In this document: in pieces, positions 6,822 to 34,848 of the stretch | How the letters are laid out: every line of letters begins with the position of its first letter | Numbering within the stretch: position 1 is the stretch's first letter | Assembly: GCF_014195445.1 (NCBI RefSeq) | Contig: NZ_JACIBT010000001.1 | Span: 248,001 to 312,000 of the forward strand | DNA: 64,000 bases | Direction of reading: 5' to 3' | Origin: Garicola koreensis | GTDB lineage: Bacteria; Actinomycetota; Actinomycetes; Actinomycetales; Micrococcaceae | Translations under genes and position numbers: made by a program | Notes under the pieces: generated by a model | Told to the model about the DNA's origin: nothing | Database searches by the model: none | What the model saw: only the letters and a program-made list of their open reading frames with translations

Positions 6822-6965
6822 CGTTATTTACGCGGCCAATGGCGGAACCGCTTTATCTGGACCGATGCTGGCCACGTGGGGGATACGAGGCTCCTCTATC
6901 TGGTTTAGTCTCGTGGCGAGAAGTCTCAACCGGGCGCTGCGATGTGGGCCGGTAGAGTGGGATGC

Positions 6966-8159: not shown

Positions 8160-8193
8160 GAACTTAGGGGTTATTCGGCTTCGGAACGCATTG

Positions 8194-8214
8194 GAGTTCC
8201 GCTTCAACGTGTAG
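8194..8214 (+). repeat. YchF 3'-end-like scar, site B
   Basis: Seven codons read E-F-R-F-N-V-stop, the canonical YchF C-terminus, 35 bases after the PD-(D/E)XK stop. It is a partner to site A in direct orientation; both share the core TTCAACGT. Only the extreme end of the gene is present. Confidence 0.5.
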
Positions 8215-8258
8215 CCCGGGCGTCACACGCCTTGACAGTGCTTGTTGCCGCGACTCCC

Positions 8259-13568: not shown

Positions 13569-13591
13569 GGATGCCCGCAGGTGTTAGCAAC

Positions 13592-14005
13592 ATGTCTGTG
13601 CCGATGCATCACAGCCGCAGCTATATCGAGTTCGGCGTTACGGACCTCGCTGCTGCCCGTGTCTTCTACAAGTCGGCTTTCGGATGGGAATTCAACGATT
13701 ACGGTTCGGTTTGCAGCGGGATCAGGGCGCCCGGTGGAAATGGCGAAGTCGGTGGGTTGAACCCTGGTTCGGCGCCCAGCGACGAAGGACCCATCGTACT
13801 GCTCTTCACCGCATTTGTGGGGACGTTCATTGCGCGCATTTCCCGCGGTCGTACGATCCGCGGCGTCGTCGTCGGGGTGGTGCTGGTGCCGAGCCTGGTC
13901 AGTGTCGTGTGGTTCTCGGTCTTCGGCGACCTCGACGCCGCAGGCACCATGAACGACGCCAAGGCCGCCGGCAAGGTGCGCATGGGGGGGGCGAGGAATA
14001 CGTGA
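13592..14005 (+). pseudogene. Chimeric ORF: VOC protein head, BCCT transporter piece, YchF tail
   Basis: One open frame contains three unrelated pieces. Residues 1 to about 73 are the start of a VOC (glyoxalase/bleomycin-resistance) protein, with [18 protein letters not shown] and FGWEFNDYG. Then 38 residues identical to an internal segment of the BCCT transporter at 39.9 kb, including [16 protein letters not shown]. Then [19 protein letters not shown], the C-terminal region of the GTPase YchF. No known protein has this arrangement, and the YchF part changes frame before its end. I treat it as a recombination product and not a functional fusion. Confidence 0.7.
13814..13928 (+). repeat. 115-bp copy of part of the BCCT transporter gene
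   Basis: Bases 13814-13928 match 40925-41039 inside the intact BCCT gene with two mismatches (about 98%). Both ends are abrupt. The near identity points to a recent copy event within this genome or a very close relative, unlike the more diverged neighbouring scraps. Confidence 0.9.
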
Positions 14006-14047
14006 TGAAGGACGGCGACGTGGTGGAGTTCAAGTTCAAACGTGTGA
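13928..14047 (+). pseudogene. ychF: YchF C-terminal fragment, site C
   Basis: The frames read [19 protein letters not shown] then [15 protein letters not shown] followed by N-V-stop if one extra A near 14038 is removed. This is the TGS-domain end of the redox-regulated GTPase/ATPase YchF (OLA1 family). About 38 residues remain, with frameshifts at about 13988 and 14038. The piece is directly joined upstream to the BCCT copy and downstream to a HxlR regulator lacking its start. Confidence 0.8.
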
Positions 14048-18700: not shown

Positions 18701-19924
18701 GAGGCAGTTGAGCGTGACCGCCGAGTCATTGCTGGCCTGGTTCGTGCCGCCTTGGACAGGACGGACGACAAGGCGAAGGGCGCTGACGAGGAGTCTCCGA
18801 TCGCACGGCGGCGTCGGCGGTCAGATTCCCGCCTGATCCTTGCCGTGAGACCGTCATTGGCTGCGGTGGCAGGTCCCCTTGGTGAGGTGGCCGACCAGTT
18901 GGTGACTGAGGCGCGCGACGTGGGTGACGCGGTCCTATCTCGTGGTCGGGCAGCTGCTGTGCTTCGAGCACATTGGACTGGCGATCTGCTGAACCTCGAC
19001 GATGTACGTCTCGTCAGGTTGGCTGCACGGATGTCGGACAGCGCGGCCGCTTCGACATCGGGTGAGCTGTACTCACGCGAGATGCCATCTGCCGACGCCG
19101 TCAGGTTGGCGCTGGGCGCCACCATCCCCTCTCAGGAGTTCACCGTCGCGGATGTACACAAGATTGTGCAGGTGCGATTCCCCGGTGTCGCCGATCTGCC
19201 ACGACGCCCGGACCTTGATGACGTCCTGCGTCAGGCGGGCACCGGACTCGAGTGGACGGGCAACGGTTATGCGGTTCCCTCCAGCCACTCGGACACCACA
19301 TTCGTGACGAAAACCCATCACACCACGATTCCTGTGGGACGGGCCGACGGAAAACAGCCAGAACGTCTTGTTCGAGAATTGCGAGAGAGCGTCGGCGCAC
19401 GCTCGTTCCTGGCGATCGGTATCCCAGCGCGGCAGGTCGAACGGACAACATCAGATCTGCTGTCGACGTACGGCGGTGTCCAGGTCAACGTCACCGACCT
19501 CCTTTTGGGAGGATTGCGGTCCCAAGCTGAAGAGAAATCAGTCCCGTGGGACGCCGTGTTGGCAGCAGACGCCGCTGAGTCAGGCACGCGTGCCGCTGAC
19601 GGACTCGCTGCATTGGTGCGTCAGTCGATCTCGACGATCGAGACTGCAATCGCCGAAGCGATGGAGTCTGCCTCCGAGGCCACGCAGCCGGTGGTGGTGA
19701 CCGACGCGGCGCCCCTGGCGCGCTACGGGCACCTCAGGGTGATCGCCCGGCTCGCGGACGTCGCTCAGCACCGGTCGAACGCCGTGTGGCTGATCGTGCC
19801 CCAGGGGCCGGAACCTGGGGCCCATCTTGACGGCACCCCCATCCCTCTGTCCTATTCCTCCCAGTTCCTGAACCTCGACAATCGCGTCGCCGTTCCGGCG
19901 GCCGCCGAAGGAGAAACGCAGTGA
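15719..19924 (+). CDS. pglW: BREX type 2 serine/threonine kinase PglW
   Basis: 1401 aa, the usual size for PglW. The N-terminal NERD nuclease-related domain has Asp55, Glu68 and Lys70 (ELK). Two kinase-like domains follow. The first, about 200-480, has HRGLNP at 334-339 in place of HRDLKP, so it lacks the catalytic Asp and is probably a pseudokinase. The second has a glycine loop RLGSGSTAVG near 527, Lys552, HRDIKPAN from His644, and DFS at 669-671 instead of DFG. A helical region near residue 810 (GLTPRALSALEPF) resembles helix-hairpin-helix. ATG 15719 follows a GGAGG. Pgl kinases are thought to control the phage-growth-limitation response in Streptomyces; here it heads the operon and its stop overlaps pglX by GTGA. 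Confidence 0.92.
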   Translation: MRQNSERWHVVSESEFVHEREGLGHVRDLLPDRGPFHAWSNFEFRDHQGRWAEVDLLVLGEGRLHLVELKHYQGPISGNAYRWQRGQRSEDSPLLVARRKAQRLASVLKDAARRIGMDPSAVPFVQESIFLHADNTQCLLTESDKTDLFGLDGYEDASNLPSIADRLLEPDRRRHDRPGLTEDAFLEVVEAAGFAVRREREVGSWRIIGAPLNEGDGWQDWPAEHRVAREQRARIRFFLVADGSSAAQVEARRQLVSREFSLTSRLRHDGVLSPRDLVDHELGAGLVFPYDPDGQRLDLWLADRAPDLSHADQVDLVRQLAEALQYAHSNGIVHRGLNPMAITVHGSQRDGSQLKVGNWQVAGAVDDATNSILETQGTATRVFGLLDRDRSDRGERFADSFVAPEGQWSPHAHRVKLDVFALGAVAYLLVSNQVPATSAVDLKERLARDGGLDLAADLPEAPAPLRELIRDATRPQVSQRLRDVPAFLEGLSHVERALSAGETNVDVDPLDAAPGTFLGDRFELVRRLGSGSTAVGLLVIDHQANEAQRVLKVAVDDAAGQRIYDEAEVLSALRGKKHPRLVRLVEKSPLEVGGRTALLLASAGEKTLGDELRDRRRLSLDLLDRWGTDLLEALVGLDEAGVDHRDIKPANLGVREQRSDRAKHLVLFDFSLARASAATVKAGTPPYLDPFLGTGSRSHWDSAAERYAVAVTLFEMATGNTPVYGDGQSDPGSIREPATIEAAAFDPTAADGLVAFFTRALDRDAKQRFGTAAEMLAAWRSALSATTTTTPDDADELAQQATPGTSLSQSGLTPRALSALEPFRLETVGDLAALDTGKLSRFSGIVDATKREIRTRAKQWRERFGDSLPVAGADEDQETVRPDDPLVAPVATAKLLVESAGSERAAARRTGAEVLLGLSGRAPAFGTLGELAGPLELGGSPQVSQLLAAIRDGWTANATATSILDDIADQVLVTLDGLDGAAWAETVVNSMAPAEAVERDRRVIAGLVRAALDRTDDKAKGADEESPIARRRRRSDSRLILAVRPSLAAVAGPLGEVADQLVTEARDVGDAVLSRGRAAAVLRAHWTGDLLNLDDVRLVRLAARMSDSAAASTSGELYSREMPSADAVRLALGATIPSQEFTVADVHKIVQVRFPGVADLPRRPDLDDVLRQAGTGLEWTGNGYAVPSSHSDTTFVTKTHHTTIPVGRADGKQPERLVRELRESVGARSFLAIGIPARQVERTTSDLLSTYGGVQVNVTDLLLGGLRSQAEEKSVPWDAVLAADAAESGTRAADGLAALVRQSISTIETAIAEAMESASEATQPVVVTDAAPLARYGHLRVIARLADVAQHRSNAVWLIVPQGPEPGAHLDGTPIPLSYSSQFLNLDNRVAVPAAAEGETQ

Positions 19925-22900
19925 GCGCACGCGACACGTTGACCGCTGAGCTGCGAGCCGAAGTGCTCCACCTCGAAGATGACCTGCGCGCGCGGGTCAC
20001 TTCCCAGCCTGAGGTGGAGGCGGCCTGGCGCGACGAGTACGAGGCCTCTCGTGCCTCTGAACGGACATCGGCGACGTGGGAAGCCTGGGTCGATGAACGG
20101 GTGACTCTCGCCGCTGTGGCGTGGGCCCTCACCACAGTCTTCGTTCGGTTCTGTGAGGACAACGACCTCGTCAAACCGGTGTGGATCACTCATTCGGGAG
20201 CGCGACACGCAGAGGCTCTCGATGCCCAGCAGCACTTCCTTCGTGAAGCCGCGCGGACGAACCCGGATATCACCGACCGGGAGTGGCTTCTCGAGGCAGT
20301 GGGGTACCTGCGTCAGTTGCAGGCGACAGCTGGTCTGGTGGATGGGAACTCACCTATGTGGCTGGTGCAACCCTCCGGCGATGCGGCAACCAGACTCCTC
20401 AACTTCTGGCGGGAGCGCGACGACGACGGCGTTCTGCTCCGGGATATGACGGATGCTGACCTGGACACCCGGTTCCTCGGGGACCTATATCAGGAGATCT
20501 CTGAGGATGCTCAGAAGCGGTTTGCGCTGCTTCAGACCCCAGTCTTCGTTGAAGAGTTCATCCTCGATCGCGCTCTTGAACCTGCGCTCAACGAGCGTCC
20601 GCTCGAGGGCTTCAGAGCGATCGATCCGACGTGTGGCTCCGGACATTTTCTGCTCGGCATTTTCCATCGTTTGTTGGACCGGTGGCACCGCAAGGCCCCC
20701 AATATGGACGAACGTGAACGTGTACAGACGGCGCTCGACGCGGTGCATGGTGTCGATATCAATCCGTTCGCTGTGTCGATTGCTCGGTTCCGGCTGACGG
20801 TGGCCGCGCTCCAAGCCTGCGGCATGATGAGTCTCGAAGAAGCGCCAGCGTTCAAGTACCACTTGGCAGCAGGCGACTCGCTCCTGCACGGTCTTGCTCA
20901 GGAGGAGCTCGACTTCGGGGCTGAGATGGCATCCGACCGGGTGGCCGCCAACTTCGCCTACGCCACCGAGAACTTGACTGAACTCAAACGGATCCTTCGT
21001 AACGGGCAGTATGACTGTGTGGTCGGCAACCCTCCGTACATCGCGGTTAAGGATGCCTCGCTGAATGCTCTATACCGACGTCGCTACCCTGTGGCCTGTA
21101 AGGGGCAATACCATCTCTCTTCTCCATTTACGGTCAGATTCTTCGAGCTCGGCCATCCCTCTGGCCGGACTGGTCTGATCAGTGATGACGCTTTTATGAA
21201 GCGAGAGTTTGGTGTACCTCTCATTGAGAAGTTCCTTGCGTCCAAGGACTTGGAGCTAGTTGCAAACACATCGGGTGCATATTTGCCCGGCCATGGGACC
21301 CCAACGGTGATTCTGGTAGGACGAAATAGAGCTCCCAGGGCAGGTAGCGTTCGTGCTGTACTTGGGGTGCGGGGCGAACCCGGTGTGCCAGATGATCCGT
21401 CACGCGGACTCGTATGGACGGAGATGTTGCAGAATGTCGACGACCCCACATGGGAAGGCGAGTTTGTTGCGGTTCGAGACGTTGCCCGCTCGACTCTAGC
21501 TGTGCATCCCTGGCAGTTGAAGGGCGGCAGTGCAGCTGAGGCAAAAATGGCGCTCGAGGCAAGTTCGCAGCCCCTTTCAAGCCTTCTTGTTTTTCCGCCG
21601 GGCCTGGCCATCCGAGCTGGATCTGATGATGCCTATACCGACCCTGGCCCGTTGGTGCGGCGGGAGGTTGGCTCATACCTTCGCCCGTTTGTGGTGGGGG
21701 CAGGGGTGCGAGATTGGGGGGTTTTCGTCGGGCAAAGGGTGTTGTATCCGTACGCCTCGGAAGGGCCTGCAGATGCCAAGCTTGAGGGCGCCCTCTGGCC
21801 TCTGCGGACAACCCTGGCGGCACGCAAGACCTTCCAGGGTTCTATGGCGGATAGCGCACTACATTGGACCGAATACCAACAGCACACAAAATCGGCATAT
21901 GACACTCCAGAATCATTGGTGATTGCGAATATATCTACGCATTTGGAGTGTGCATTTCACGAACAGCCGGGGGTGTTCAAGGAAACGGTTATTGTCTTGA
22001 AGTTGAGGGAGGGTAGTCCTGACGCTGGCGTTCAAGCTGTACTGAACTCAGCGGCCGCAAATTTCTGGCTGAAGCAGGTCTGCTACCCCAAGGGAGGGGA
22101 CAAAAAGGGTGGAAAGGGGGCTCGCGTGACAGGGGAGGCATGGGAGGAACGCTACTCGTTCAATGGCACTAACATCGCGGAGATTCCCATGCCAGTGTAC
22201 TTGCCGTCAGTCTCCGGCGAACGCCTTCGATCGCTTGCATCAGAAGCTGCGGCGACTACACCGCAGTCGATCGTCGAAGGCGAGACAGCGCCTACCGCCG
22301 ACGAACTTTCTGATGCCTCAGTCAAATACGCTGGACTGCGAGCCGAGATGATCTCCCGGCAGGAGGAGCTGGACTGGGAAGTTTATCGTCTGTACGGGAT
22401 CGTTGATGAGGATTTGACCTACTCCGGCGATGATTTGCCTGGCCTTGGGAAGGGGCAACGAGCATTCGAGATGGTTTTGGCGCGAAGAATGCGAGATGGC
22501 GCAGAGACTTCTTGGTTTAGTCGCCACGGTTCGACGCCAATCACTGAAATTCCAGAACATTGGCCAAAAGCTTACCGTGAACTAGTCCAGAAGCGGATAA
22601 GCCTTATTGAGTCAAGCAAGTTCATTAATCTGTTGGAACGGCCAGAGTACAAACGTAGGTGGGTGACCGATCCATGGGAGCAAAAGGAGCGCTCACTGCG
22701 GGATTGGTTGCTTGATCGGCTGGAGCACCGGGCGTTTTGGTTCGACTCCCATGGCCGACCGGCTCCGCAGAGCGTCGCCACGCTGGCCGATGAGGTGTCT
22801 CGTGACGCGGACATGGTGGCAGTTCTCGCTCTGTGGGAGGGCCGGCCTGACGTGCCCGTCGTGAAGAGTCTGGAGTCTCTGCTCGCTAACGAGGCTGTGC

Positions 22901-23478
22901 CGTACCTGGCGGCCTACCGCTACAAGGAGCCCGGACTGCGGAAGCACGCCGATTGGGAGTCCACGTGGGAACTCCAGCGCCGCGAGGATGCCGGTACGTA
23001 CAAACCAGCGCGCAAGGAGCTGGGTGGCGACGGGCCGATCCCGGTGCCGCCGAAGTACAAGAGCAGTGACTTCCGCAAGCCTGAGTACTGGGCGCATCGC
23101 GGCAAGCTCGACGTGCCCAAGGAGCGTTTCATCCTCTATCCCGACGCTGGTCGCGAGACCGATCCGACCCCGATGCTGGGCTGGGCGGGTTGGGACCACG
23201 CTGAGCGAGCCCTGGCGATCGCAATGTTGATCCAGCAGCGGGAGTCCGACGGTTGGGAAGACGAGCGTCTGGTGCCCCTCGTCGCTGGGCTGGCCGAGGT
23301 GTTGCCGTGGGTGCAGCAGTGGCACGACGAGCCGGATGATCGGTTCGGCGGCGCTAATCTGGCCGAGTTCATGGCCGAGCAGCTCGAGGAGCGGATGACG
23401 CAGGTAGAGGCGACAGCCGACCAGTTGAAAGCATGGCGACCGGCACCGGCGAAGAAGGGACGGAAGGCGAAGGCATGA
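19921..23478 (+). CDS. pglX: BREX adenine-specific DNA methyltransferase PglX
   Basis: 1185 aa N6-adenine methyltransferase that in BREX systems marks self DNA at a non-palindromic site. AdoMet-binding motif DPTCGSGHFLLG starts at Asp235; catalytic NPPY starts at Asn370. The region about 400-900 (DNA 21.1-22.6 kb) corresponds to target recognition and is visibly poorer in G+C-ending codons than both flanks, suggesting exchange of the specificity part. GTG 19921 overlaps the pglW stop by four bases, with AAGGAG upstream. The stop overlaps pglY by ATGA. The sequence is intact, so the host DNA should be modified. Confidence 0.95.
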   Translation: MSARDTLTAELRAEVLHLEDDLRARVTSQPEVEAAWRDEYEASRASERTSATWEAWVDERVTLAAVAWALTTVFVRFCEDNDLVKPVWITHSGARHAEALDAQQHFLREAARTNPDITDREWLLEAVGYLRQLQATAGLVDGNSPMWLVQPSGDAATRLLNFWRERDDDGVLLRDMTDADLDTRFLGDLYQEISEDAQKRFALLQTPVFVEEFILDRALEPALNERPLEGFRAIDPTCGSGHFLLGIFHRLLDRWHRKAPNMDERERVQTALDAVHGVDINPFAVSIARFRLTVAALQACGMMSLEEAPAFKYHLAAGDSLLHGLAQEELDFGAEMASDRVAANFAYATENLTELKRILRNGQYDCVVGNPPYIAVKDASLNALYRRRYPVACKGQYHLSSPFTVRFFELGHPSGRTGLISDDAFMKREFGVPLIEKFLASKDLELVANTSGAYLPGHGTPTVILVGRNRAPRAGSVRAVLGVRGEPGVPDDPSRGLVWTEMLQNVDDPTWEGEFVAVRDVARSTLAVHPWQLKGGSAAEAKMALEASSQPLSSLLVFPPGLAIRAGSDDAYTDPGPLVRREVGSYLRPFVVGAGVRDWGVFVGQRVLYPYASEGPADAKLEGALWPLRTTLAARKTFQGSMADSALHWTEYQQHTKSAYDTPESLVIANISTHLECAFHEQPGVFKETVIVLKLREGSPDAGVQAVLNSAAANFWLKQVCYPKGGDKKGGKGARVTGEAWEERYSFNGTNIAEIPMPVYLPSVSGERLRSLASEAAATTPQSIVEGETAPTADELSDASVKYAGLRAEMISRQEELDWEVYRLYGIVDEDLTYSGDDLPGLGKGQRAFEMVLARRMRDGAETSWFSRHGSTPITEIPEHWPKAYRELVQKRISLIESSKFINLLERPEYKRRWVTDPWEQKERSLRDWLLDRLEHRAFWFDSHGRPAPQSVATLADEVSRDADMVAVLALWEGRPDVPVVKSLESLLANEAVPYLAAYRYKEPGLRKHADWESTWELQRREDAGTYKPARKELGGDGPIPVPPKYKSSDFRKPEYWAHRGKLDVPKERFILYPDAGRETDPTPMLGWAGWDHAERALAIAMLIQQRESDGWEDERLVPLVAGLAEVLPWVQQWHDEPDDRFGGANLAEFMAEQLEERMTQVEATADQLKAWRPAPAKKGRKAKA

Positions 23479-26400
23479 GCAATTCCTCGAAGAAGACGCT
23501 GCTCCGAGATGTCATCAGCATCCCTGAGCGTGCCGGGGCCGACGACTACGTCCTCCGACTCACTGAGGGCGTCGGGGAAGGGCGTCTCGACACCACCATT
23601 GAGGACTACGTCGTCACGGATGCGCTCACTGAGGCATTCGACCAAGCACTGGATCTGGTGGCCACCTCGCTGAAAGATGGCACCAGTCGGGCGTCGTTCC
23701 TCTCCGGGTCATTTGGCTCCGGTAAGTCGCACTTCATGGCGGTGCTCTACGCACTCCTGGGTCACAATCCCACTGCTCGTGCCAAGCCCGAGCTCGCTCC
23801 AGTCGTCCAGCGGTACGATGGCGAGCTTCAAGGCAAGAAGGTCCTGCGACTGGCATTCCACTTCCTCGACTCCGACAGCATCGAACAGGCCATCTTCTCT
23901 GGATACGTGAACCAGGTCGCCGAGCTGCACCCGGAAGCGCCCCTCCCTGCAGTGCACCAGAGCGACCAACTTCTTGATGATGCTGATGGTTGGCGAGCGA
24001 AGATGGGAGACGACGCCTTCCTTGCGGGACTCAACAAGTCCGACGTCGCCGGTGGTGAAGATGACGTCTGGGGCAAGGTGCTGCAAGAGGGCACCTGGAC
24101 GTCCGAGTCCTACGATCGCGCCCGTACCGCGGCCCCGGACTCTGAGGATCGGCAGCGACTGGTCTCGGCCCTGGTCAACACCTATTTCAAGGCCTTCACC
24201 CGCGGCGCGGAGTTCGTCAGCCTGGACGAGGGGCTGGCCGTCATCAGCAATCATGCAAAGTCGCTCGGCTACGACGCGATCGTGATGTTCCTCGACGAGC
24301 TCGTGCTGTGGCTGGCGTTCCGGGTTCGGGACGCCGAGTTCTTCGGGCGTGAAGCGCAGAAGCTCACCAAGTTCGTCGAGTCCGGTGCTGGCCAGCTGGA
24401 CATTCCTCTCATCACCTTCGTCGCTCGCCAGCTGGACCTGCGCAAGTACTTCGTCGAATCGGGTGGAGGTACAGGCTCCCATCAGGAGGCGCTCGATTCG
24501 GCGTTCCAGCACCAGGAAGGTCGCTTCCGCACCATCGTGCTTGGGGACGACAACCTGCCGTATGTCGCTGAGAAGCGCCTGCTGAAGCCGGTCTCCGGGG
24601 AGGCTCGCCGAACCATCGATGATGCGTTCAACGGGCTCGACCGTCGTGAATACCTGTGGGATGTGCTGCTGGACGGCATCAACAACGATGAGGGGACCAA
24701 GGGCGCCGACCGGCAGGCGTTCCGGCGGACGTACCCATTCTCCCCGGCTTTGGTCTCGACTCTCCGGACGCTCGCCTCGGCGATGCAGCGTGACCGCACG
24801 GCCCTGAAGGTGATGCAGCAACTGCTGGTCGATCAGCGCGACCACCTCACCGTCGATGACGTGATCCCCGTCGGTGACGTATTCGACCTGGTCGTCAACG
24901 GCAATCAGGCCATCACTGAAGACATGCGAGGGCGCTTCCGCAATGCCCTGAAGCTGTACGAGGAGAAGCTCCGCCCCCTGCTGCTGCGCGAGCACCGGTT
25001 CGACGACGCGGACGTCGAGGGCCTCGCTCCCGACCACGTCTTCCACGCTGATGACCGCCTGGTGAAGACTCTGGTGCTGTCCGCGATCGCACCTGAGGTG
25101 CCGGCACTGCGGGAGCTCACACCAGGACGGCTGGCTTCGCTGAACCATGGTTCGATCGTCAGCCCCCTGCCGGGCCAAGAAGCGACCACGGTGCTGTCCA
25201 AACTGAAGAAGTGGAACGGCGAGGTCCCGGAGATCCATATCTCCGGTGACAGTCGGAACCCGACGGTCCGACTCCGGATCTCCGAGGTCGACTACGAGTC
25301 CGTGGTCGAGAAGGCCAAAGGCGAAGATAACGAGGGGCGTCGTCGTGAAGTTCTCAAGAACATCGTCTGGGAGGAGTTCGGGCTCGAACAGATCGACGGT
25401 GATGTCACCGGTATCAGCAGGCAGAACCGGATCTGGCGAGGCTCTCGGCGTGAAGTGGAGGTGATATTCGCGAATATCCGCGATCGCACATGGCTGGCCG
25501 ATGAGATGTTCGAAGCTGGGTCCGACACGTGGCGGTTTATCATCGACTACCCCTTCGACGAACACGGGCACGGCGTCCGGGAGGACGACCAGCGGCTTGA
25601 CGACCTGCGGAACAAGGGACTCGACACGCGCACCGTGGCCTGGGTGCCGCACTTCTTGTCGGACAAGCGCCAGCGCGAGCTCGGTCGACTGGCTGTCCTC
25701 GACTGGTTGCTCGGTGGGTCAGGGGATCGTTGGACCTCCATGTCCAGCGACCTCGCACCGGCAGACCGAAGTCAAGCGAAGATCATTCTTGAGAACCAGC
25801 GTGATGCACTCCGAGAGAGGATGCGCGGCGCCGTCCAGGAAGCATACGGCGCCGCTCGTGCGACGACCGGCAATCTGGACGTCGACGAGGCCCATGAGCG
25901 CGTGTTGATCTCGCTTACCCACGAGTTCACCCCGCAGGCCCCGGTCGGGCACGACTTGGAGGCAGCATTCACGAACCTGGTCGACCAGGTCTTCTCCGCG
26001 GCATTTCCCGGGCACCCCAAGTTCGAACCCGAGGATGCCGAAGTCAAACCCCGCGAGCTCAACGCTGTACTGGACGCGGTCAATGAGGCGCAGCAGGACC
26101 CCGACGGTCGTGTCTTTGTGGAGTCGGCGCGGCGAGACTCCGTACGTCGTATCGCCAACGAGCTCGGTGTCGGGCATATGGGGGAGACGCACTTCCTCTT
26201 CGGCGCCGACCGGTTCCCGTGGCAGATGACGTTCGCCAAGGCGATGGGAGCTGCTGAGCTGGAGCAGACTGACGTGATCGACGTCGCCACTCTCCGTCGT
26301 TGGATCCGCGAGACCACACCTGCCCCCGGGCTCCGTACTGAGGTCGCCGATCTGGTCATCTGCGCGTGGGCGATCCTCCAGGGGCGTGCCTGGTATCGCT

Positions 26401-27233
26401 ACGGCTCGGCGCTTGAGGCGGCCCCGAAGCCCGGCAGTCTCACCAAGGAGATGGAGCTTCGGCCCGAAGCCCTGCCGGACGCGGCGGCTTGGCGGTCGGC
26501 GGTCGATCGCGCAGGGGCCATGTTCGGCATCAACGCGAACACCTACCTGACGGGCAGCGCGGTGTCCGAGCTCGCCACGCAGATCCGGAAACGTATTGCC
26601 GAGCTGTCCGCAGATTCCCGAGGACTGGTCGATGCGCTGTCGGAGGCTTATCAGCGACTCGGCCTGCCGTTGGACGGCACGGCGGGTGGTCGTCTGGCGA
26701 CTGCGCGATCGACTGCTGAGCTGTTCGCAGACTTGCAGGCGAAGACCGACAACGTCAGCTTGATCGAAACGCTGGGTCGTGCCGAGCTGACGGCGACGGA
26801 TCAGGCTGCGGGGCGTTCCGCGTCGAAGTCGGGGACTGTGGCCCGCCAGCTGCACGATTTCGGGTGGTCACGTCTGTCGCCCTTGCTCGATGCTGAGGGA
26901 TATCACAGCGACCGGGGCCGGTCGGCGAAAGAGGCGCTGGATCGACTGCGGAACTCTCTGACGGCGGACGAGCTGGCGCAGCCGCTCACCAATGCGCTGA
27001 AGCGTGCCGAAGACGATGCGTTCGCATGGCTCGAAGAGGGCCAGAAGGCCGTGGAACAGGAGCCCGCCACCCCGTCTGGACCGGCTTCGTCGGAGGCTGC
27101 GGGGGCCGCAACGAACGGACGGCGCACTGTGACCTCAGCGGATGATCTCCACCGTGTTCGAGAAGAGCTCGACAATTTCCTGGAAGAACATGGCGGTGCT
27201 CGCGTGGTCGTCGAATGGAGGGTCGAACCGTGA
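23475..27233 (+). CDS. pglY: BREX P-loop ATPase PglY (BrxC-like)
   Basis: About 1252 aa. P-loop SGSFGSGKSHFM has Lys84, and a Walker B-like strand IVMFLDELVLWL lies near residue 280. This is the large AAA-type ATPase of type 2 BREX, counterpart of BrxC, needed for defence. I chose ATG 23475, which overlaps the pglX stop as ATGA; an in-frame start 42 bases earlier lies inside pglX and seems less likely. The C-terminal part is rich in Ala and Glu and probably helical. It ends with GTGA shared with pglZ. Confidence 0.92.
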   Translation: MSNSSKKTLLRDVISIPERAGADDYVLRLTEGVGEGRLDTTIEDYVVTDALTEAFDQALDLVATSLKDGTSRASFLSGSFGSGKSHFMAVLYALLGHNPTARAKPELAPVVQRYDGELQGKKVLRLAFHFLDSDSIEQAIFSGYVNQVAELHPEAPLPAVHQSDQLLDDADGWRAKMGDDAFLAGLNKSDVAGGEDDVWGKVLQEGTWTSESYDRARTAAPDSEDRQRLVSALVNTYFKAFTRGAEFVSLDEGLAVISNHAKSLGYDAIVMFLDELVLWLAFRVRDAEFFGREAQKLTKFVESGAGQLDIPLITFVARQLDLRKYFVESGGGTGSHQEALDSAFQHQEGRFRTIVLGDDNLPYVAEKRLLKPVSGEARRTIDDAFNGLDRREYLWDVLLDGINNDEGTKGADRQAFRRTYPFSPALVSTLRTLASAMQRDRTALKVMQQLLVDQRDHLTVDDVIPVGDVFDLVVNGNQAITEDMRGRFRNALKLYEEKLRPLLLREHRFDDADVEGLAPDHVFHADDRLVKTLVLSAIAPEVPALRELTPGRLASLNHGSIVSPLPGQEATTVLSKLKKWNGEVPEIHISGDSRNPTVRLRISEVDYESVVEKAKGEDNEGRRREVLKNIVWEEFGLEQIDGDVTGISRQNRIWRGSRREVEVIFANIRDRTWLADEMFEAGSDTWRFIIDYPFDEHGHGVREDDQRLDDLRNKGLDTRTVAWVPHFLSDKRQRELGRLAVLDWLLGGSGDRWTSMSSDLAPADRSQAKIILENQRDALRERMRGAVQEAYGAARATTGNLDVDEAHERVLISLTHEFTPQAPVGHDLEAAFTNLVDQVFSAAFPGHPKFEPEDAEVKPRELNAVLDAVNEAQQDPDGRVFVESARRDSVRRIANELGVGHMGETHFLFGADRFPWQMTFAKAMGAAELEQTDVIDVATLRRWIRETTPAPGLRTEVADLVICAWAILQGRAWYRYGSALEAAPKPGSLTKEMELRPEALPDAAAWRSAVDRAGAMFGINANTYLTGSAVSELATQIRKRIAELSADSRGLVDALSEAYQRLGLPLDGTAGGRLATARSTAELFADLQAKTDNVSLIETLGRAELTATDQAAGRSASKSGTVARQLHDFGWSRLSPLLDAEGYHSDRGRSAKEALDRLRNSLTADELAQPLTNALKRAEDDAFAWLEEGQKAVEQEPATPSGPASSEAAGAATNGRRTVTSADDLHRVREELDNFLEEHGGARVVVEWRVEP

Positions 27234-30001
27234 CTGTCGACGCGTCAGTGCGCCTCCCGGAAGCCACGCTGCCCATCGTTCGTCAGCTCCTCGAATCGGC
27301 CTCGAAGAAGGGGCGCCGCGAGGGAGTTCTTGGCATCCGCGCGTCCACGATGTGGTCCGGCGCGACTGAGTTCTCCCACCATGGGTCCGATGTCATCGTC
27401 GCGCCCTGCCGCTCGGCGTTGGCAGTGCGGGAAGCACTCCAGGACCGACGCAGCGGATTATGGTTGGTCATCCTTACCGACCGGGACGAGGCGGATCTCG
27501 GCACCGGGATTCTCACCCATTTCCAAGGCCAAACGTTGCGCAACCCGGACCCATGGGCGGCCGTTCGCGAGCAGTTCGCAGCCTCAGTCGGCGTAGACAG
27601 GCAGTTGAGCTCGCATCCGCGGGCTCGCGAGCTGGCGACAGGATTTCTGGCAGCTCGTGGGGACAAACCATGGTACCCGGCTCGCGCCGGCTTCCTCACG
27701 TACGATCACGCGTTCGCCTCTGTGGCGATGCGCTGGTTTGACCTCGGTCGAGAGCTGCCGAACCCCGGCATCGACGATGTCCTGAGATGGGCGATTCGTG
27801 CTGACCGGAGCAGTCGCATTCGGGAATTGCGGAAGCAGGTCGGCGACGCGCTTGCCGACGCGGCCCTCGATTGGTTGGCCCGGCGCTGCGGACGTGCACA
27901 ACCGCTCGTCTCCACGCTGCTTGCCAGCGACCGGCTGGCTGATCTCGTCCCGCTCGGGCTCGCGAGTCGCGCGGTGCTGGCGTGCCCGGGAGGATCGGAA
28001 CCGTGGGTTCTGCTGCGGGTCCAGCAGCTGCAGGTCGAGGAGGTCACGCCGGCACAGGTAAACACCCTCGTCGATGCCGCCGAGCAGGTCACTCGCGAAC
28101 TCCTGATGAGCAGCAACGATGAGTCTCAGCGTGATGTGGGCCGGGTGCTCACACGTGCGGATGCTCTCATCGCAGAGCTCCGAGCAGATGCTGGCGTTCA
28201 GGATTCCTCGGTTCTGCGTCGGAGCCTTACAGCACGCCTGGGGACGCTCGGAGACGCCCTGCACCAGGCGACGCAGTTCTCCACGCAGAATGTCGCACAG
28301 GTAGATGCTCCCTTGGCCGACCGGTCCCAACTAGACAATGTGGAGCGTGCATTGGCCGACGTTGAGTCTCATGTTCTCGCCCACCACCGAGACGAGCGTC
28401 GCGTCTCACGGGCCAAAGACGGTGTGCGTCTCACTCGTTGGCTCGCGGCCGACCTCACGTCTGGCGAGGACACTCGGAGCGGCTCCTTCGCTGATCACAT
28501 GCGGAGGCATCGGGATGACGATGCGTGGGTCGATCGAGCGTACGGCGACGCGTGGCGGGGCGTCGGCGATGAAGCTCTGTCAAAGGGGCTCGAGACCGTC
28601 CTGGCGGCCGTGCGCCTGCGACGGGACGCTCATGATCGCTGTTTCGCAAAGGAACTCGCTGTCGCTGCGCAGTCTCGGGATGCCTTGCCCGACGATGTCA
28701 TTCCTCTCGAGGACGTGATCGCTCGGACAGTCGTTCCGCTGGCTCGAGAGCCTCGTCCGGTGCTGATGATCGTTGCCGATGGGATGAGTGCGGCGGTGGG
28801 TTCCGAGATCCTGGATGACATCGAGCACCGCCACGACTCCTGGTTAGAATGTGTTCCGTCGGGAGCCGAGAGGCGAAGCGTCGGCGTCTCCGCCCTGCCG
28901 TCGTTGACTGAAGTGTCCCGCTGCAGCTTGCTGTCCGGCACGCTGGCGACGGGACAGCAGAATGCTGAGCGCAAGGGCTTCTCCGCCCTCATGAAAGCTC
29001 ACGGCCTTACCGGGGGTCTCTTCCATAAACTGAGCCTAGAGACGTCCGGTGCTGGGACGGAGCTTGCGCCGGACGTTCAGACTGCCATCGATGACACTGA
29101 GGACACTCAGGTCGTGGCCTGCGTGCTCAACACCATCGATGATGCGCTGGATCGTTCCGATCCAGGGATGGACTGGACGGCCGATGCTGTGTCACACCTG
29201 CGCCCGTTGCTGGACCGCGCTCGACGAGCAGGGCGGACCGTCGTCATGACGTCCGATCACGGGCACGTCATCGAGCGTCGTGACGGCCACCAGAAGTCTG
29301 TCTCAGCGACATCCAGCAACCGGTCGCGGCCTGCCTCGGATGGCGGAGGGGTCACGGACGACGAGATTCGGGTGGTCGGCCCGCGGGTGCTGCTGCACGA
29401 TGGTGACGCTGTGCTCGCCGTCGACGAGCGTCTGCGGTACGGGTCGTTGAAGGCTGGCTATCATGGCGGTGCCGCACCGGCTGAAGTGGTCGTGCCGATC
29501 CATGTGCTAGTCACAGGGGAACCGCCGAAGGGCTGGGATCTCGCGACGCCACAGGAACCGGACTGGTGGCGCAATCCGCTTGCCTCGGAAACGACAGGAC
29601 CGGCGACACTGAGACGACTGGTCCTTCCGCCCTCCGAGAGCCCCACGCTGTTTGACGAAGTCGAGCCGGAACCCAATCCCAGGGTTCAGGATATGGCCGC
29701 TGACGTGGTTCGTTCACCGACGTACGCAGCTCAACGTGAACGAGCATCCCGTATCAGTCTGTCGGACGAGAAGATCACTGCGCTCCTGCGTTCGCTCATT
29801 GCGGCTCCTGGCCATCGTGCCGATCCCGCCTCCGCGGCATCGGCCCTCGGAGTTGCTAAGGTTCAGCTCGCTGGGGCCCTGCCGATGGTCCAACGTCTGC
29901 TGAATGTCGAGCAGTACCCGGTTCTGGACCGCGCTCCTGATGGGGAGACTGTGGTCCTGGATCTCGAACTATTGAAGGAGCAGTTCGGAGTGGGCCGATG
30001 A
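27230..30001 (+). CDS. pglZ: BREX alkaline-phosphatase-like protein PglZ
   Basis: 923 aa. The phosphatase-fold core shows VLMIVADGMSAAVGSE with Asp517 and VVMTSDHGHVIERR with Asp676, His677 and His679, expected metal-binding positions of the PglZ domain. The last 100 residues form a separate predicted winged-helix-like domain (SLSDEKITALLRSL ... RLLNVEQYPVLD ... LLKEQFGV). GTG 27230 has GGAGGG six bases upstream and overlaps the pglY stop as GTGA; the ATG at 27215 is an alternative. PglZ is the defining BREX component. Its C-terminal domain recurs, diverged, in the membrane protein that follows. Its stop overlaps a dead brxD start as ATGA. Confidence 0.95.
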   Translation: MTVDASVRLPEATLPIVRQLLESASKKGRREGVLGIRASTMWSGATEFSHHGSDVIVAPCRSALAVREALQDRRSGLWLVILTDRDEADLGTGILTHFQGQTLRNPDPWAAVREQFAASVGVDRQLSSHPRARELATGFLAARGDKPWYPARAGFLTYDHAFASVAMRWFDLGRELPNPGIDDVLRWAIRADRSSRIRELRKQVGDALADAALDWLARRCGRAQPLVSTLLASDRLADLVPLGLASRAVLACPGGSEPWVLLRVQQLQVEEVTPAQVNTLVDAAEQVTRELLMSSNDESQRDVGRVLTRADALIAELRADAGVQDSSVLRRSLTARLGTLGDALHQATQFSTQNVAQVDAPLADRSQLDNVERALADVESHVLAHHRDERRVSRAKDGVRLTRWLAADLTSGEDTRSGSFADHMRRHRDDDAWVDRAYGDAWRGVGDEALSKGLETVLAAVRLRRDAHDRCFAKELAVAAQSRDALPDDVIPLEDVIARTVVPLAREPRPVLMIVADGMSAAVGSEILDDIEHRHDSWLECVPSGAERRSVGVSALPSLTEVSRCSLLSGTLATGQQNAERKGFSALMKAHGLTGGLFHKLSLETSGAGTELAPDVQTAIDDTEDTQVVACVLNTIDDALDRSDPGMDWTADAVSHLRPLLDRARRAGRTVVMTSDHGHVIERRDGHQKSVSATSSNRSRPASDGGGVTDDEIRVVGPRVLLHDGDAVLAVDERLRYGSLKAGYHGGAAPAEVVVPIHVLVTGEPPKGWDLATPQEPDWWRNPLASETTGPATLRRLVLPPSESPTLFDEVEPEPNPRVQDMAADVVRSPTYAAQRERASRISLSDEKITALLRSLIAAPGHRADPASAASALGVAKVQLAGALPMVQRLLNVEQYPVLDRAPDGETVVLDLELLKEQFGVGR

Positions 30002-30090
30002 ACAGAGTGACGCACTCCGTCAGCGCCCGACGACGCCGCAAAGTCATTGATGCGTTGCGCTGGGATCCGTGCCGCATAACGGTCTGGCGA
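29998..30090 (+). pseudogene. brxD: Relic of the brxD 5' end
   Basis: ATG 29998 overlaps the pglZ stop as ATGA, the expected pglZ/brxD junction. The frame reads MNRVTHSVSARRRRKVIDAL, then a single-base deletion near 30061 shifts it; the next frame gives VPHNGLA. The intact brxD at 31481 starts IRRRREVIDALRRGTVPHNG. Only about 30 codons remain before homology stops and YchF sequence begins. It marks where the original brxD was cut away. Confidence 0.8.
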
Positions 30091-30257
30091 TCCACGCCGA
30101 CTTCCAGCGCGGCATCGTCGATGCCCGGATGGTCTCTCACGAGGCTCTGATGGCCGCCGGCTCGATGGCGGAGGCCAAGGTCAACGGGAAGGCGCTCGTA
30201 GGGCGAGGACTCCGTCGTGAAGGATGGCGACGTGGTCAGCTTGAAAAATGACGTGCG
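30090..30257 (+). pseudogene. ychF: YchF C-terminal fragment, site D
   Basis: Reads IHADFQRGIVDARMVSHEAL then MAAGSMAEAKVNGKAL, and after a frameshift near 30200 GEDSVVKDGDVVSLK. This is the last 55 or so residues of YchF (family pattern: IHTDFxxGFIKAEVVS ... KDYVxxDGDVVxFxFNV). The final residues are degenerate. It is the longest of the four YchF scars and is joined directly to the brxD relic. Confidence 0.8.
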
Positions 30258-30386: not shown

Positions 30387-31484
30387 ATGAGTGAGTCTGA
30401 TTCTACGAAAAATCACGATGACTCACCCGCTTGGGAGTCGTGTGTGGGCTTATGCGTAATTCCTCCCCTGGGTGCGGTTGGTGGTACGTTCGTTGCCAGT
30501 AGCCTGTTCAGCGACTCCGGCGGCGTGTTGACTTGGGTGCTAGGGATCGGCGGCGCCCTTGTCGCATTGGTGACTGGCGCGCTCGTGCTTCCAAAGTTGA
30601 GAGCTGCTGGAAAGAGCGATGATGAGGCTCCAGCAGGTGGAGCTACAGGGCATGACAGCTCGACCCCGGGTCGAGTTCCCAGCGGGGCCGAACCGGTAAA
30701 CTCTGCGTCCCCGGAAAGCAGTGAGAGGGTCTCACGAGATGGAACTGAGGAAACGCGTGGGCCATCCACTCTGGAGGAGCGTGTCCCTGGTGCTGCAAGC
30801 GAGGCGGAGCAGGTAGGCAAGAGTAGCACTCCTCTTAGGTTCTTCCTGGACGAGGAAAGTTCGCCGATGTCTCTCAGCGTCATGTATGACACCAATGGGC
30901 CCGACGAGCTGGGGGTAGCGCTCGGCACTTTTGAGTCCCGCGACGACGCGATGTCCGCAGTGGAGCAGGTGCGTCAGTCGCTGGAAGGTGAGACATGGCG
31001 CGGGGAGAGCGTTGCTCATGCGATGCTGACGGTTCAACCATTCGCGCTAGGATTGCCGGGAAATCACGGCCTACCCGGGTCGAGTTCTGGAACGGCGCAG
31101 CCGCATTCCGCCGATCCTATGCAACCCACTCAGGCGGAACCTAAGGAGAATGCTGGTCGCGAACCGGAAGACGGTGTCGTAGCCCAGGTCCTGGACTCGG
31201 CGATGTTCACGGAGCAACGTCGGCGTGCCCGACGGGCGTCCCTTTCGGACCAGCAGATTGGTTCTTTGTTGCGCCGACTGATGTCTGCACCTGGACACCG
31301 GATCTACCAGTCCGACGCAGCAGAGGCACTAGAAGTGCCCGTGTTCCAGCTGTCAGGTGCACTTCCTGTGGCGCAGCGGCTCCTGAACGTGGACCAGTAT
31401 CCCGTGCTGTACCGTGATCCGGACAGCATCGAGATTGTTCTTGACCTCGATTTGCTCCAGGAGCAGTTCGGAGTGACCACGTGA
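30387..31484 (+). CDS. Membrane-anchored protein with PglZ C-terminal-type domain
   Basis: 365 aa; no family recognised as a whole. Residues about 19-40 and 46-68 are hydrophobic and form two predicted membrane helices (CVIPPLGAVGGTFVASSLF and LTWVLGIGGALVALVTGALV). A low-complexity Ser/Glu/Pro linker follows to about 145. A small domain of about 75 residues (LRFFLDEESSPMSLSVMYDT onward) comes next, then a second linker. Residues about 271-365 align with the PglZ tail: SLSDQQIGSLLRRLMSAPGH, GALPVAQRLLNVDQYPVL, and LLQEQFGV before the stop. No phosphatase core is present. The stop overlaps brxD as GTGA. It may tether or regulate BREX proteins at the membrane, or be a by-product of fusing a second pglZ 3' end; sequence alone does not decide. 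Confidence 0.7.
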   Translation: MSESDSTKNHDDSPAWESCVGLCVIPPLGAVGGTFVASSLFSDSGGVLTWVLGIGGALVALVTGALVLPKLRAAGKSDDEAPAGGATGHDSSTPGRVPSGAEPVNSASPESSERVSRDGTEETRGPSTLEERVPGAASEAEQVGKSSTPLRFFLDEESSPMSLSVMYDTNGPDELGVALGTFESRDDAMSAVEQVRQSLEGETWRGESVAHAMLTVQPFALGLPGNHGLPGSSSGTAQPHSADPMQPTQAEPKENAGREPEDGVVAQVLDSAMFTEQRRRARRASLSDQQIGSLLRRLMSAPGHRIYQSDAAEALEVPVFQLSGALPVAQRLLNVDQYPVLYRDPDSIEIVLDLDLLQEQFGVTT

Positions 31485-32752
31485 GTGGAGTTGTTAGCAT
31501 TCGCCGGCGGCGCGAAGTAATTGATGCACTGCGCCGTGGGACGGTGCCGCATAATGGTCTGGATTTGCTGGCTGTCGGCCTGTCGCGGTTCGAGGCAGCG
31601 CTGGATGCCGAGTTGGGGACTGCTCGAAGCGGTGGAGCATCCTTCAAAGCTGTTCGAGGTGAGTACGGGTCCGGGAAGACCTTCTTCTCTCGGTGGTTGG
31701 GTGAGCGAGCAAAAAAGTCCGGGATGGCAGTTGCTGAAGTACAGATCTCCGAAACCGAGACGCCTCTTCATAAGCTGGAGACGGTATATCGCCGCGTTTG
31801 CGAGTCGATGGAAACTGCTGAGTTTCCACCTTCTGCGTTCCGACCTATTCTCGATGCGTGGCTCTTTGCGCTTGAGTCGGAGGGCGAATCCGTCGACGCC
31901 GTCGTCGAGAAGCGGTTGGCTGAAGTTTCCAGGACGACTCCCGCGTTCTCTACTGCTCTCCGGGGATATCGCGATGCCCTGCTGAGAGGAGATGAGGCGA
32001 CTGCAGAAGGGTTGGTCGCGTGGCTGGGCGGGCAGCCGCACGTTGCTGCCGCTATCCGTCGTGAAGCTGGTGTGCGTGGCGACCTCGACCATTTCGGCGC
32101 CTTCGGGTTTCTGCAGGGACTCCTGACCGTCCTCCGCGACTCCGACCATCCTGGTCTCGTGCTGATTCTGGATGAAGTGGAGACGCTCCAGCGGGTTCGA
32201 ACCGATGTCCGAGAGAAGGCACTCAACGCTCTGCGGCAGCTTATCGATGAGATTGACAGTGGGCGTTTCCCTGGCCTTTACCTATTGATCACTGGCACGC
32301 CAGCGTTTTTCGACGGCGCCCAGGGCCTGCAGCGTCTTCCTCCGCTCGCGCAGCGCCTTGCCACGGACTTCACCACGGAAGAACGGTTCGACAATCCCCG
32401 TGCCGTTCAGCTCCGCCTACCGGGGTTTTCTCAGTCGCTCCTGCAAGACGTCGGCCAGGCCGTGCGGGATTTGTACGCCTCAGGAACTGAGTCAGCGGAG
32501 CGGATCCGGACGACGGTGGACGATGCGTATATCGCCGATCTGGCCGCCGCCGTCGCCGGATCGCTCGGCGGGAAAGTCGGGGTCGCCCCGCGGCTGTTTC
32601 TGAAGAAGCTCGTCGGAGACATCCTCGATCGTGTGGACCAGTTCGAAGAATTCGACCCGCGCCGGCACTACAAGCTCACGGTCGGCAACTCGGAGCTCAA
32701 CGACGTCGAGCAGAATGCTGCCGCGACGAGTGTGGATGACATCGAACTGTGA
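31481..32752 (+). CDS. brxD: BREX ATP-binding protein BrxD
   Basis: 423 aa P-loop ATPase of the BrxD family. IRRRREVIDALRRGTVPHNG is the family N-terminus, VRGEYGSGKTFFSRW the Walker A (Lys66), and LVLILDEVETLQ the Walker B (Asp231, Glu232). The C-terminal part (GGKVGVAPRLFLKKLVGDIL) is usual. GTG 31481 overlaps the preceding stop as GTGA. BrxD occurs with BrxHI in type 2 and related BREX loci. This copy has full length, in contrast to the dead start left behind pglZ. Confidence 0.93.
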   Translation: MSGVVSIRRRREVIDALRRGTVPHNGLDLLAVGLSRFEAALDAELGTARSGGASFKAVRGEYGSGKTFFSRWLGERAKKSGMAVAEVQISETETPLHKLETVYRRVCESMETAEFPPSAFRPILDAWLFALESEGESVDAVVEKRLAEVSRTTPAFSTALRGYRDALLRGDEATAEGLVAWLGGQPHVAAAIRREAGVRGDLDHFGAFGFLQGLLTVLRDSDHPGLVLILDEVETLQRVRTDVREKALNALRQLIDEIDSGRFPGLYLLITGTPAFFDGAQGLQRLPPLAQRLATDFTTEERFDNPRAVQLRLPGFSQSLLQDVGQAVRDLYASGTESAERIRTTVDDAYIADLAAAVAGSLGGKVGVAPRLFLKKLVGDILDRVDQFEEFDPRRHYKLTVGNSELNDVEQNAAATSVDDIEL

Positions 32753-34848
32753 GCGCTGCTGACCTTCACCCCGTTCTGCTCCACCACGTGGTCAACACGT
32801 TGGAGTGGCCAGGGTTGCGCCCGCTACAGGAGGAGGCCGTCACTCCAATTCTTCGGGGCGACGATGCACTCCTGCTTGCGCCGACGGCAGGAGGCAAGAC
32901 CGAAGCAGCGAGTTTCCCCCTGCTGACACGGGCCGCGAATGAACGGTGGCAGGGGATGTCGGTGCTGTATGTGTGCCCGTTGCGGGCGCTGCTGAATGAT
33001 CTGGAGCCACGTCTGGACAAGTACTCCGGTTGGTTGGGGCGTCGAGCTCAGCTCTGGCACGGCGATACGACCCAGGGCCAGCGTAGGAAGATGCTGATAG
33101 ACCCGCCGGAGATGCTCCTGACCACTCCCGAATCACTCGAGGCGATGTTGGTCTCGACCAAGGTCGATCCTCGGGAGCACTTTGCGAATGTGCGTGCGAT
33201 CGTCGTCGACGAAGTTCACTCGTTCGCCGGCGATGATCGAGGATGGCATCTGTTGGCCGTTCTCGAACGCTTGGAGAAACTGGCGGGTCACCCGATCCAG
33301 CGCATCGGGCTGTCGGCGACTGTCGGAAACCCCGACGAGCTGTTGACCTGGCTTCAAGGCTCAGAAGCTGACTCTCGGCCGGCTTCTGTGGTCTCGCCCG
33401 ACGTGGCTCCGGCAGGTGGCAGTTCTGCCGGGGACGTGACGTTGGACCACGTCGGGTCTCTCAGCAATGCTGCGAAGGTCATCTCGTTGTTGCACGTTGG
33501 GGAGAAGCGACTGGTCTTCTGTGAGTCGCGTCGCGAAGTTGAGGAACTCGCGAGGAATCTGCGAGAGCGCGATGTCACTATTTTCGTCTCCCACTCGTCG
33601 TTGTCGTTCGATGAACGTCGACGGACCGAGCAAGCTTTCGCGGAGGCACGTGACTGTGTGATCGTCTCCACCTCGACGCTTGAACTCGGCGTCGATGTCG
33701 GTGATTTGGACCGGGTAATTCAAATCAATGCCCCAGGAGCTGTCGCTTCTTTCCTGCAGCGCATGGGACGGACCGGCCGCCGGTCCGGCACAGCGCGCAA
33801 TGCTCTCTTCCTGACCACTACGGATGATGGGTTGCTGCAGGCCGCCGGACTGCTGCGTCTGTGGTCGCGAGGATACGTCGAGCCGATCTCCGCCCCGCCG
33901 AGTCCTCGGCACATTGCGGCGCAGCAGGTGCTGGCGCTTTGTCTTCAGGAGGGGCGCGTCGGAAAGCACGTCTGGTCGGACTGGTGGAGGGGCCTGTCGA
34001 TCTTCGGAGACCAGGCCCCAGAGATCGTCGACTCACTTGTGGAGTCGTTGTACCTGGAGTCCGACGGTCAGATGCTCTTCATCGGTCCGGAAACGGAGGA
34101 GCGCTTCGGCCGCCGCAACTTCATGGACCTGGTATCAGTCTTCACCGCGAACCCCGAGTTCACCGTCATCGAGGGGCGTCAGGAGCTTGGTGCTGTCGAT
34201 CCACTGGTACTGACGCGCAAGGTTGAGGGACCCCGGTTCATCGTCCTCGCTGCGCGTTCGTGGGAGGTGACTCACATCGATTGGAAGCGACGGAGGTGCT
34301 TCGTCGAGCCGTCCGACGTTCCCGTCAAGATGCGATGGGTCGGTGAAGCGGCCCCACTGAGCTATTCACTGACACGCGCCGAGCGTGAGATCCTGCTCGG
34401 TGAAGACCCGGACGTCACGATTTCCAAGCGTGCGGATTCGAAGCTTGCGGAGATCCGTGACGTACACGCAGCCGAAGTCGCGGCACACGGGTCGGTGATA
34501 CTGCGTGCTGGGGGAGAGACACACTGGTACACATGGGCTGGTGCTCGTGCCAACGCCACTTTGATAGCCGGACTCCCGGGCATCGCCGATGAGACTCAAC
34601 GGCCGGAAAACTCCCGCATCCGGCTCCTCGGTCCCGAGGTGGTTAAGAAGCTCTCTGATGCACTCGACTCGTCCGATTGGTCCGCAGTCCTTCCCGCTGT
34701 ATCGCCGGGGGCACTGGATGGTCTGAAGTTCTCCGAGGTGCTGCCCCGGGACCTGGCGACTTCGACGGTAGCAGACAGGCTCGCCGATCGCCCCGGCGCA
34801 AGGGCCGTGGCTTCTGAACCACGAGTCCAGGTGATCGGGCACGAGTAG
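32749..34848 (+). CDS. brxHI: BREX helicase BrxHI
   Basis: 699 aa Lhr-like superfamily 2 helicase. Walker A APTAGGKTEA (Lys50), DEVH box from Asp154, GLSATVGNPDELL motif III, and a C-terminal helicase domain with STSTLELGVDVGDLDRVI and QRMGRTGRRSGTARN motif VI. GTG 32749 overlaps the brxD stop as GTGA. It completes the six-gene type 2 BREX set pglW, pglX, pglY, pglZ, brxD, brxHI. Full length, no lesions. Confidence 0.93.
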   Translation: MSAADLHPVLLHHVVNTLEWPGLRPLQEEAVTPILRGDDALLLAPTAGGKTEAASFPLLTRAANERWQGMSVLYVCPLRALLNDLEPRLDKYSGWLGRRAQLWHGDTTQGQRRKMLIDPPEMLLTTPESLEAMLVSTKVDPREHFANVRAIVVDEVHSFAGDDRGWHLLAVLERLEKLAGHPIQRIGLSATVGNPDELLTWLQGSEADSRPASVVSPDVAPAGGSSAGDVTLDHVGSLSNAAKVISLLHVGEKRLVFCESRREVEELARNLRERDVTIFVSHSSLSFDERRRTEQAFAEARDCVIVSTSTLELGVDVGDLDRVIQINAPGAVASFLQRMGRTGRRSGTARNALFLTTTDDGLLQAAGLLRLWSRGYVEPISAPPSPRHIAAQQVLALCLQEGRVGKHVWSDWWRGLSIFGDQAPEIVDSLVESLYLESDGQMLFIGPETEERFGRRNFMDLVSVFTANPEFTVIEGRQELGAVDPLVLTRKVEGPRFIVLAARSWEVTHIDWKRRRCFVEPSDVPVKMRWVGEAAPLSYSLTRAEREILLGEDPDVTISKRADSKLAEIRDVHAAEVAAHGSVILRAGGETHWYTWAGARANATLIAGLPGIADETQRPENSRIRLLGPEVVKKLSDALDSSDWSAVLPAVSPGALDGLKFSEVLPRDLATSTVADRLADRPGARAVASEPRVQVIGHE

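Follow-up and report, generated by a model that had tools for sequence, protein, structure and literature searches.

What is a small gene for a putative membrane protein doing between pglZ and brxD in a bacteriophage exclusion (BREX) operon, and how did it come to end in the C-terminal domain of PglZ? The gene lies in Garicola koreensis, in a 64,000-nucleotide stretch of contig NZ_JACIBT010000001.1 (G000:C1:248001-312000) that we call the window; positions refer to it unless another contig or locus is named. The window contains a type 2 BREX (BREX-2) locus, in which the usual set of six (pglW, pglX, pglY, pglZ, brxD and brxHI) is found complete, and the additional gene, here called the fusion gene, directly precedes brxD. 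We tentatively favor the hypothesis that this gene was born by recombination and that its product is a membrane-tethered fusion coupling the PglZ winged helix to the BrxD-BrxHI motor, although our confidence in it falls somewhat short of even.

Anatomy of the fusion protein

The fusion gene is an open reading frame (ORF) of the forward strand at 30387..31484 that encodes 365 amino acids, and these coordinates and this length agree with the original prediction made for this DNA. That prediction also described two N-terminal hydrophobic helices and no phosphatase core, and both descriptions hold. Hydropathy places candidate transmembrane (TM) helices at residues 19-37 and 50-68; no Pfam family, the PglZ alkaline-phosphatase-like core (PF08665) included, matched the protein at E <= 1. 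The helices are followed by a low-complexity linker, a middle domain at about residues 150-200, a second linker, and a PglZ-type winged-helix tail at about residues 259-364 (31161..31481, forward strand), which is delimited by profile matches and a structure model.

The motif AGGGGG at 30375-30380, six bases 5' of the ATG, is Shine-Dalgarno-like. Among 20,000 first-order Markov sequences of matching composition, 8 remained open across the 246 codons that precede the tail, and in the actual sequence each of the other five frames carries 5 to 14 stops. The TGA stop overlaps the GTG start of brxD, just as the stop of pglZ overlaps the ATG of a brxD remnant described below. The middle domain is modeled as a beta-beta-beta-alpha stretch at about residues 151-200 (block means 66-85). 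A search of residues 144-228 against the PDB returned three chance-level matches (E 0.49-0.70), and the idea that this domain is YegP/DUF1508-like gained no support.

The proposed homology of the tail to that of PglZ is secure, as the E-values of its profile matches exclude chance. PADLOC profile PDLC02565 matches fusion residues 246-364 at 8.4e-27 over profile positions 791-908 of 910, PDLC02543 matches at 0.002, and NCBIfam NF033446 (BREX_PglZ_2) matches at 6.1e-26 (90.9 bits, cut-off 200); all PADLOC and NCBIfam matches of the tail are to PglZ. Identity to the tail of the local PglZ is 51% over 125 amino acids, and identity to the PglZ of genome G873 is 60% over 118 amino acids, with homology starting in the PglZ linker near residue 247. 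Our tail profile (A1) comprises 22 rows, and in a profile alignment the fusion tail retains the residues conserved in PglZ tails.

A published survey describes the C-terminal domain of type 2 PglZ as a three-stranded winged helix-turn-helix (PMC12839542). AlphaFold2, run on the fusion protein together with four other tail sequences, shows winged-helix elements, both helices and strands, with high confidence at residues 261-365 (block means 79-95), with most other regions low. Foldseek matches of the model in the PDB are mostly MarR-family winged helices (best E 0.044, none <= 0.001). The fusion tail is confidently predicted to form a winged helix, as at the C-terminus of type 2 PglZ. By codon position, changes specific to this tail number 13/11/20 (14 synonymous, 7 non-synonymous), which is close to the local PglZ tail at 16/10/25 (13 synonymous, 5 non-synonymous).

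The recombination scar and the source of the tail

The fusion gene probably formed by recombination at an island hotspot, because remnants of both brxD and ychF lie directly upstream of it. These occupy the 385-bp gap between pglZ and the fusion ORF and were missed in the original prediction. The first is a decayed brxD 5' end (29998..30088, forward strand), whose ATG overlaps the pglZ stop and which shares 81% identity with intact brxD over about 60 bp. The second directly abuts the first and derives from the 3' end of ychF, likewise decayed (30086..30250, forward strand, bounds approximate); it matches PF06071 at 8.6e-5, under the cut-off, and is 66% identical over 172 columns. Both remnants are frame-broken, while the fusion frame is intact over 1,098 bp. 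The DNA identity of the two pglZ tails, estimated earlier as about 65%, measures 64% (213 of 334 columns), and their alignment continues past the pglZ stop into the brxD remnant, which is included in these 334 columns.

Pieces of ychF recur along this contig. The intact gene is at C1:245441-246526, 1.5 kb before the window, a second decayed 3' end is at 13921..14045 (forward strand, 86% identical to intact ychF), and a third piece, comprising the very end of the gene and the bases after its stop, is at 8192..8242 (forward strand, 77% over 53 columns, E 2e-4). We found ychF in 29 of 30 genomes of the genus. Compared by eye in the best 24 of these 29 loci (our own included), the bases after the ychF stop differ widely, with a few alike, and several of the next genes resemble defence genes. 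These comparisons mark the 3' end of ychF as a likely integration hotspot for islands. The genes after ychF in relatives were also considered as a source of the fusion N-terminus and were discarded, as the 23 other loci gave only chance-level rows (best E 0.20).

Other joins are visible at these pieces. At the second ychF remnant, an ORF at 13571-14005 runs in a single frame through three pieces. One resembles a glyoxalase, weakly and below the Pfam cut-offs; another, of 123 bp, shares 97% identity with the BCCT gene at 40925-41047; and the last is from YchF (91% over 23 amino acids). Immediately 3' of the same remnant, an ORF at 14129-14497 joins an HxlR-like helix-turn-helix to a ParD-type antitoxin and is a possible chimera. 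The third piece terminates a row of consecutive genes for an SNF2 helicase, a sacsin-domain protein and a PDDEXK nuclease (23-8159), which lies 5' of the BREX locus and resembles a separate defence unit.

The original prediction raised the possibility that a foreign pglZ 3' end was fused to an unrelated membrane gene. That a fusion occurred is supported by the two remnants and by the start of homology within the PglZ linker; a foreign source for the tail is favored and not proven. The fusion tail and the G873 PglZ form a pair in an 83-tail tree (100/98), with the local PglZ next (99/81), and a 13-row tree repeats the pairing (97/96). Foreign origin is no more than favored because approximately unbiased (AU) tests do not reject the alternatives: a clade of the fusion tail and local pglZ gave p 0.63 in the 83-row set and 0.18 in the 13-row set, and in the 83-row set the tree holding the two together scored 3.9 log units above the free search. 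The earlier description of the two tails as old paralogues is uncertain in view of these trees and tests. In these trees, long-frame matches were taken as PglZ, mostly without a check for the core. Within the family of G873 the tail occurs in 1 of 188 genomes, G873 itself. A hybrid operon, with brxD-brxHI derived from a BREX other than that of pglY-pglZ, was considered and dropped, since the BrxD/PglZ distance ratios gave no sign of it (0.352 for window-G873, with 21 pairs at 0.28-0.43).

PglZ-type tails in other proteins

The layout of the window gene, in which predicted TM helices and a linker precede a PglZ-type tail, recurs in other BREX-2 loci. Agilicoccus flavus (L038/L087) and a Mobilicoccus metagenome-assembled genome (L082/L088) have in common a membrane-linker-PglZ-tail gene directly after brxHI. 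It has the same architecture as the window gene and a similar size (353 amino acids in Agilicoccus), and is likewise found in BREX-2 with its own full-length PglZ; unlike the window gene, it follows brxHI instead of preceding brxD. Fusion residues 1-246 gave only chance-level rows against L038, L082, L087, L088 and L089 (tblastn, E <= 10), none of them in the membrane gene. Whether any other genome has the full architecture was central to the original prediction: two other genera do, whereas the full-length sequence has so far found no homologue.

In the 83-tail tree the membrane tail of G608 groups, on a long branch, with the PglZ of two other genomes (98/85). AU tests reject neither its grouping with its own PglZ and that of G1088 (p 0.42) nor a single clade of the two membrane tails (p 0.34). 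An independent origin of the window and G608 membrane fusions is suggested instead by their unlike N-termini.

A different kind of tail-bearing protein occurs in one actinomycete family. In all nine loci examined (L083, L084, L147-L151, L153 and L154), a kinase-like protein with a PglZ-type tail is encoded directly upstream of brxD-brxHI, and eight of these kinase tails form one group in the 83-tail tree (100/95). Farther upstream, 8/9 loci encode a homologous two-TM protein; a vWA gene is present in 6/9 and a PP2C gene in 6/9. The operon order two-TM coiled-coil-like protein, vWA, PP2C, kinase-tail protein, brxD and brxHI is found in L084 (4323-13198), L147 (2159-10946), L148 (4873-13639), L149 (5030-13495), L150 (4195-12963) and L153 (2489-11015), and L083 and L154 have the operon without vWA and PP2C. 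No pglW, pglX, pglY or pglZ was recognised in the fetched stretches of these loci, the one exception being a weak match to PglX in L148. We hypothesize that this operon is possibly an undescribed defence system. Like the window fusion, the kinase-tail protein is a non-PglZ protein with the same C-terminal domain directly upstream of brxD-brxHI; unlike it, it has a kinase-like N-terminus and no TM helix by hydropathy, and the two-TM protein is separate. The presence of that protein hints at the same membrane link. Together, the architecture in two other genera, the kinase-tail proteins beside brxD-brxHI and the membrane protein upstream of most of them lend support to the earlier suggestion that the fusion protein is a real, membrane-anchored component.

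Other candidates for tails outside PglZ did not hold up. The match in G1187 is a pglZ with a frame break, that in G1205 a pglZ truncated at a contig end, and that in G663 a pglZ with brxD on a 3.1-kb contig. Those in G724 and G779 are decayed pieces, and G964 has a weak match and no brxD. The matches in G1219, G1247 and G1210, with a TGA inside long frames, were left out of this check.

Competing explanations and known systems

On the favored hypothesis, recombination at the ychF 3' end placed a pglZ 3' end, together with the following brxD, in frame downstream of a short gene for a membrane protein. The fusion gene, with a ribosome-binding site of its own, would lead a fusion-brxD-brxHI unit. 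Two helices would hold the product in the membrane, with both termini on the cytoplasmic side, as the positive charges beyond the second helix suggest. The winged helix may then dock to the BrxD-BrxHI ATPase-helicase pair, a partnership to which gene adjacency points, or to adjacent DNA. In this way the fusion could place or gate the motor at the membrane, the site of phage DNA entry. Membrane insertion, topology and a role in defence are all predictions from sequence.

A number of observations weigh against this hypothesis. The fusion gene sits on a recombination scar, and its overlap with brxD was inherited from pglZ-brxD, so that the overlap is not independent evidence of partnership. No sigma-70-type promoter was found for the gene, and in the TM region the AlphaFold2 model has a helix at residues 57-64 only, with pLDDT <50. 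The PglZ tail of G873 shows a stronger third-position bias than the fusion tail (7/1/18; 7 synonymous, 2 non-synonymous); the bias in the fusion tail could predate the fusion, and codon patterns cannot date the event. The Mobilicoccus copy has a frameshift. As the Mobilicoccus tail shares 54% identity with the Agilicoccus tail but 51% with two PglZ tails, the common descent of the two genes rests mainly on their N-termini. Decayed tail pieces without a nearby brxD occur in G724 and G779. The mosaic ORF at 13571-14005 is unlikely to be functional and indicates that chimeric frames arise by recombination at the hotspot.

The N-terminus is a further difficulty. A separate search with it, as the original prediction advised, found no relative: of the pattern stretches that residues 1-262 returned, 28 in viral_contigs and 144 in genome_contigs, not one was confirmed. 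Two weak matches were taken as chance, a short GlsB/YeaQ-like ORF (L012) and a multi-TM protein (L015), with L013, L034, L035 and L036 left aside. The whole protein gave only tail or weak hydrophobic matches in sets of 295 and 396 genomes, no match in phages or in PHROGs, and two plasmid records, both annotated pglZ. The tail searched in viral_contigs gave 23 pattern stretches, none confirmed.

A relic of recombination is nearly as likely as the membrane-tethered coupling protein, for the gene is an orphan that lies on a scar, and this hotspot also contains an ordinary mosaic ORF. Island debris would have been joined in frame to a displaced pglZ 3' end to give an inert protein, with the frame kept, if at all, for the translation of brxD. 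The remnants directly upstream, the N-terminus without relatives, the GTG/TGA overlap with brxD and the decayed tail pieces of other genomes all agree with such an origin. However, translational coupling alone accounts neither for the synonymous bias in the tail nor for the conserved winged-helix residues, and in two other genera the gene follows brxHI, where it is unable to feed brxD.

We consider it improbable that the protein is a decoy or brake, whose membrane-held tail would compete with PglZ for a partner and keep BREX inactive or sequestered until infection; this would explain a tail that keeps the conserved PglZ residues without the catalytic core, in the same locus as a full-length PglZ. 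An assembly artefact joining two unrelated pieces is very improbable: the genome is 79.9% complete, but the join is inside a 1.14-Mb contig, the tails are too different for a misjoin at 64% DNA identity, and ychF-end pieces recur along the same contig.

Beyond the coupling protein of the window, we can propose a broader hypothesis, which on present evidence is rather doubtful: that the winged helix of type 2 PglZ serves as a portable module coupling its carriers (PglZ, kinase-like and membrane proteins) to the BrxD-BrxHI motor, with the window gene an independently made case. If this domain couples other proteins to BrxD-BrxHI, then binding tests could focus on a single small domain. BREX would also gain a membrane link, and the kinase-tail operons would be a natural experiment on the motor without PglZ.

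The remaining genes of the window locus, all on the forward strand, were assigned by profiles: pglW at 15719..19924 (Pfam, PADLOC and NCBIfam), pglX at 19921..23478 and pglY, the BrxC-type ATPase, at 23433..27233 (PADLOC and NCBIfam for both), full-length pglZ, the BREX-2 phosphatase with its own tail at the 3' end, at 27215..30001, brxD at 31481..32752 (Pfam, PADLOC and NCBIfam for both), and the brxHI helicase at 32749..34848 (Pfam and PADLOC). PglY scores 1497 bits against PADLOC PDLC02488, but 1044 bits against an NCBIfam PglY cut-off of 1700 bits. A gene for a GIY-YIG and Schlafen group 3 helicase protein (35181-37040) lies 3' of brxHI.

Motors of this kind are paired with different upstream partners, since among five plasmid loci the BrxD-like gene is preceded by pglZ in three, by a gene for a TerB protein in one and by a gene for a hypothetical protein in one. 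A helicase gene is listed 3' of the BrxD-like gene in 4/5 of these loci, and none in the incomplete table of the Rhodococcus record. On a Deinococcus plasmid (L162 2972-15242) a gene for a BrxD-like ATPase occurs twice, both times with a helicase gene after it but with a different hypothetical protein before it. In PMC12839542 the word 'membrane' occurs only in a reference title, with no match for PP2C, Shango or transmembrane, and the matching passage in PMC4365076 is a reference title only. Among the titles and abstract starts listed, from a library that lacks most subscription journals, no description of a membrane BREX part or of a BrxD-PP2C-vWA-kinase system was found.

Two known systems bear comparison with the fusion. 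Shango consists of the TerB protein SngA, the ATPase SngB and the helicase SngC (PMC10250203). BrxD and BrxHI of the window match the SngB and SngC profiles, and it is the upstream partner that differs: SngA has TerB domains, whereas the fusion protein has no TerB Pfam match and no Sng match. The C-terminus of SngA from one E. coli plasmid copy did not match the tail profile, and with filters off none of the SngA, Deinococcus and Pseudanabaena partners matched it significantly (best whole-sequence E 0.039, Dein_5593, not at its C-terminus). PglZ itself (NF033446, PDLC02565) has a homologous C-terminal domain and is encoded, like the fusion protein, immediately ahead of brxD, whose start overlaps its stop codon; it differs in carrying N-terminal domains and a phosphatase core, in place of which the fusion protein has two predicted TM helices.
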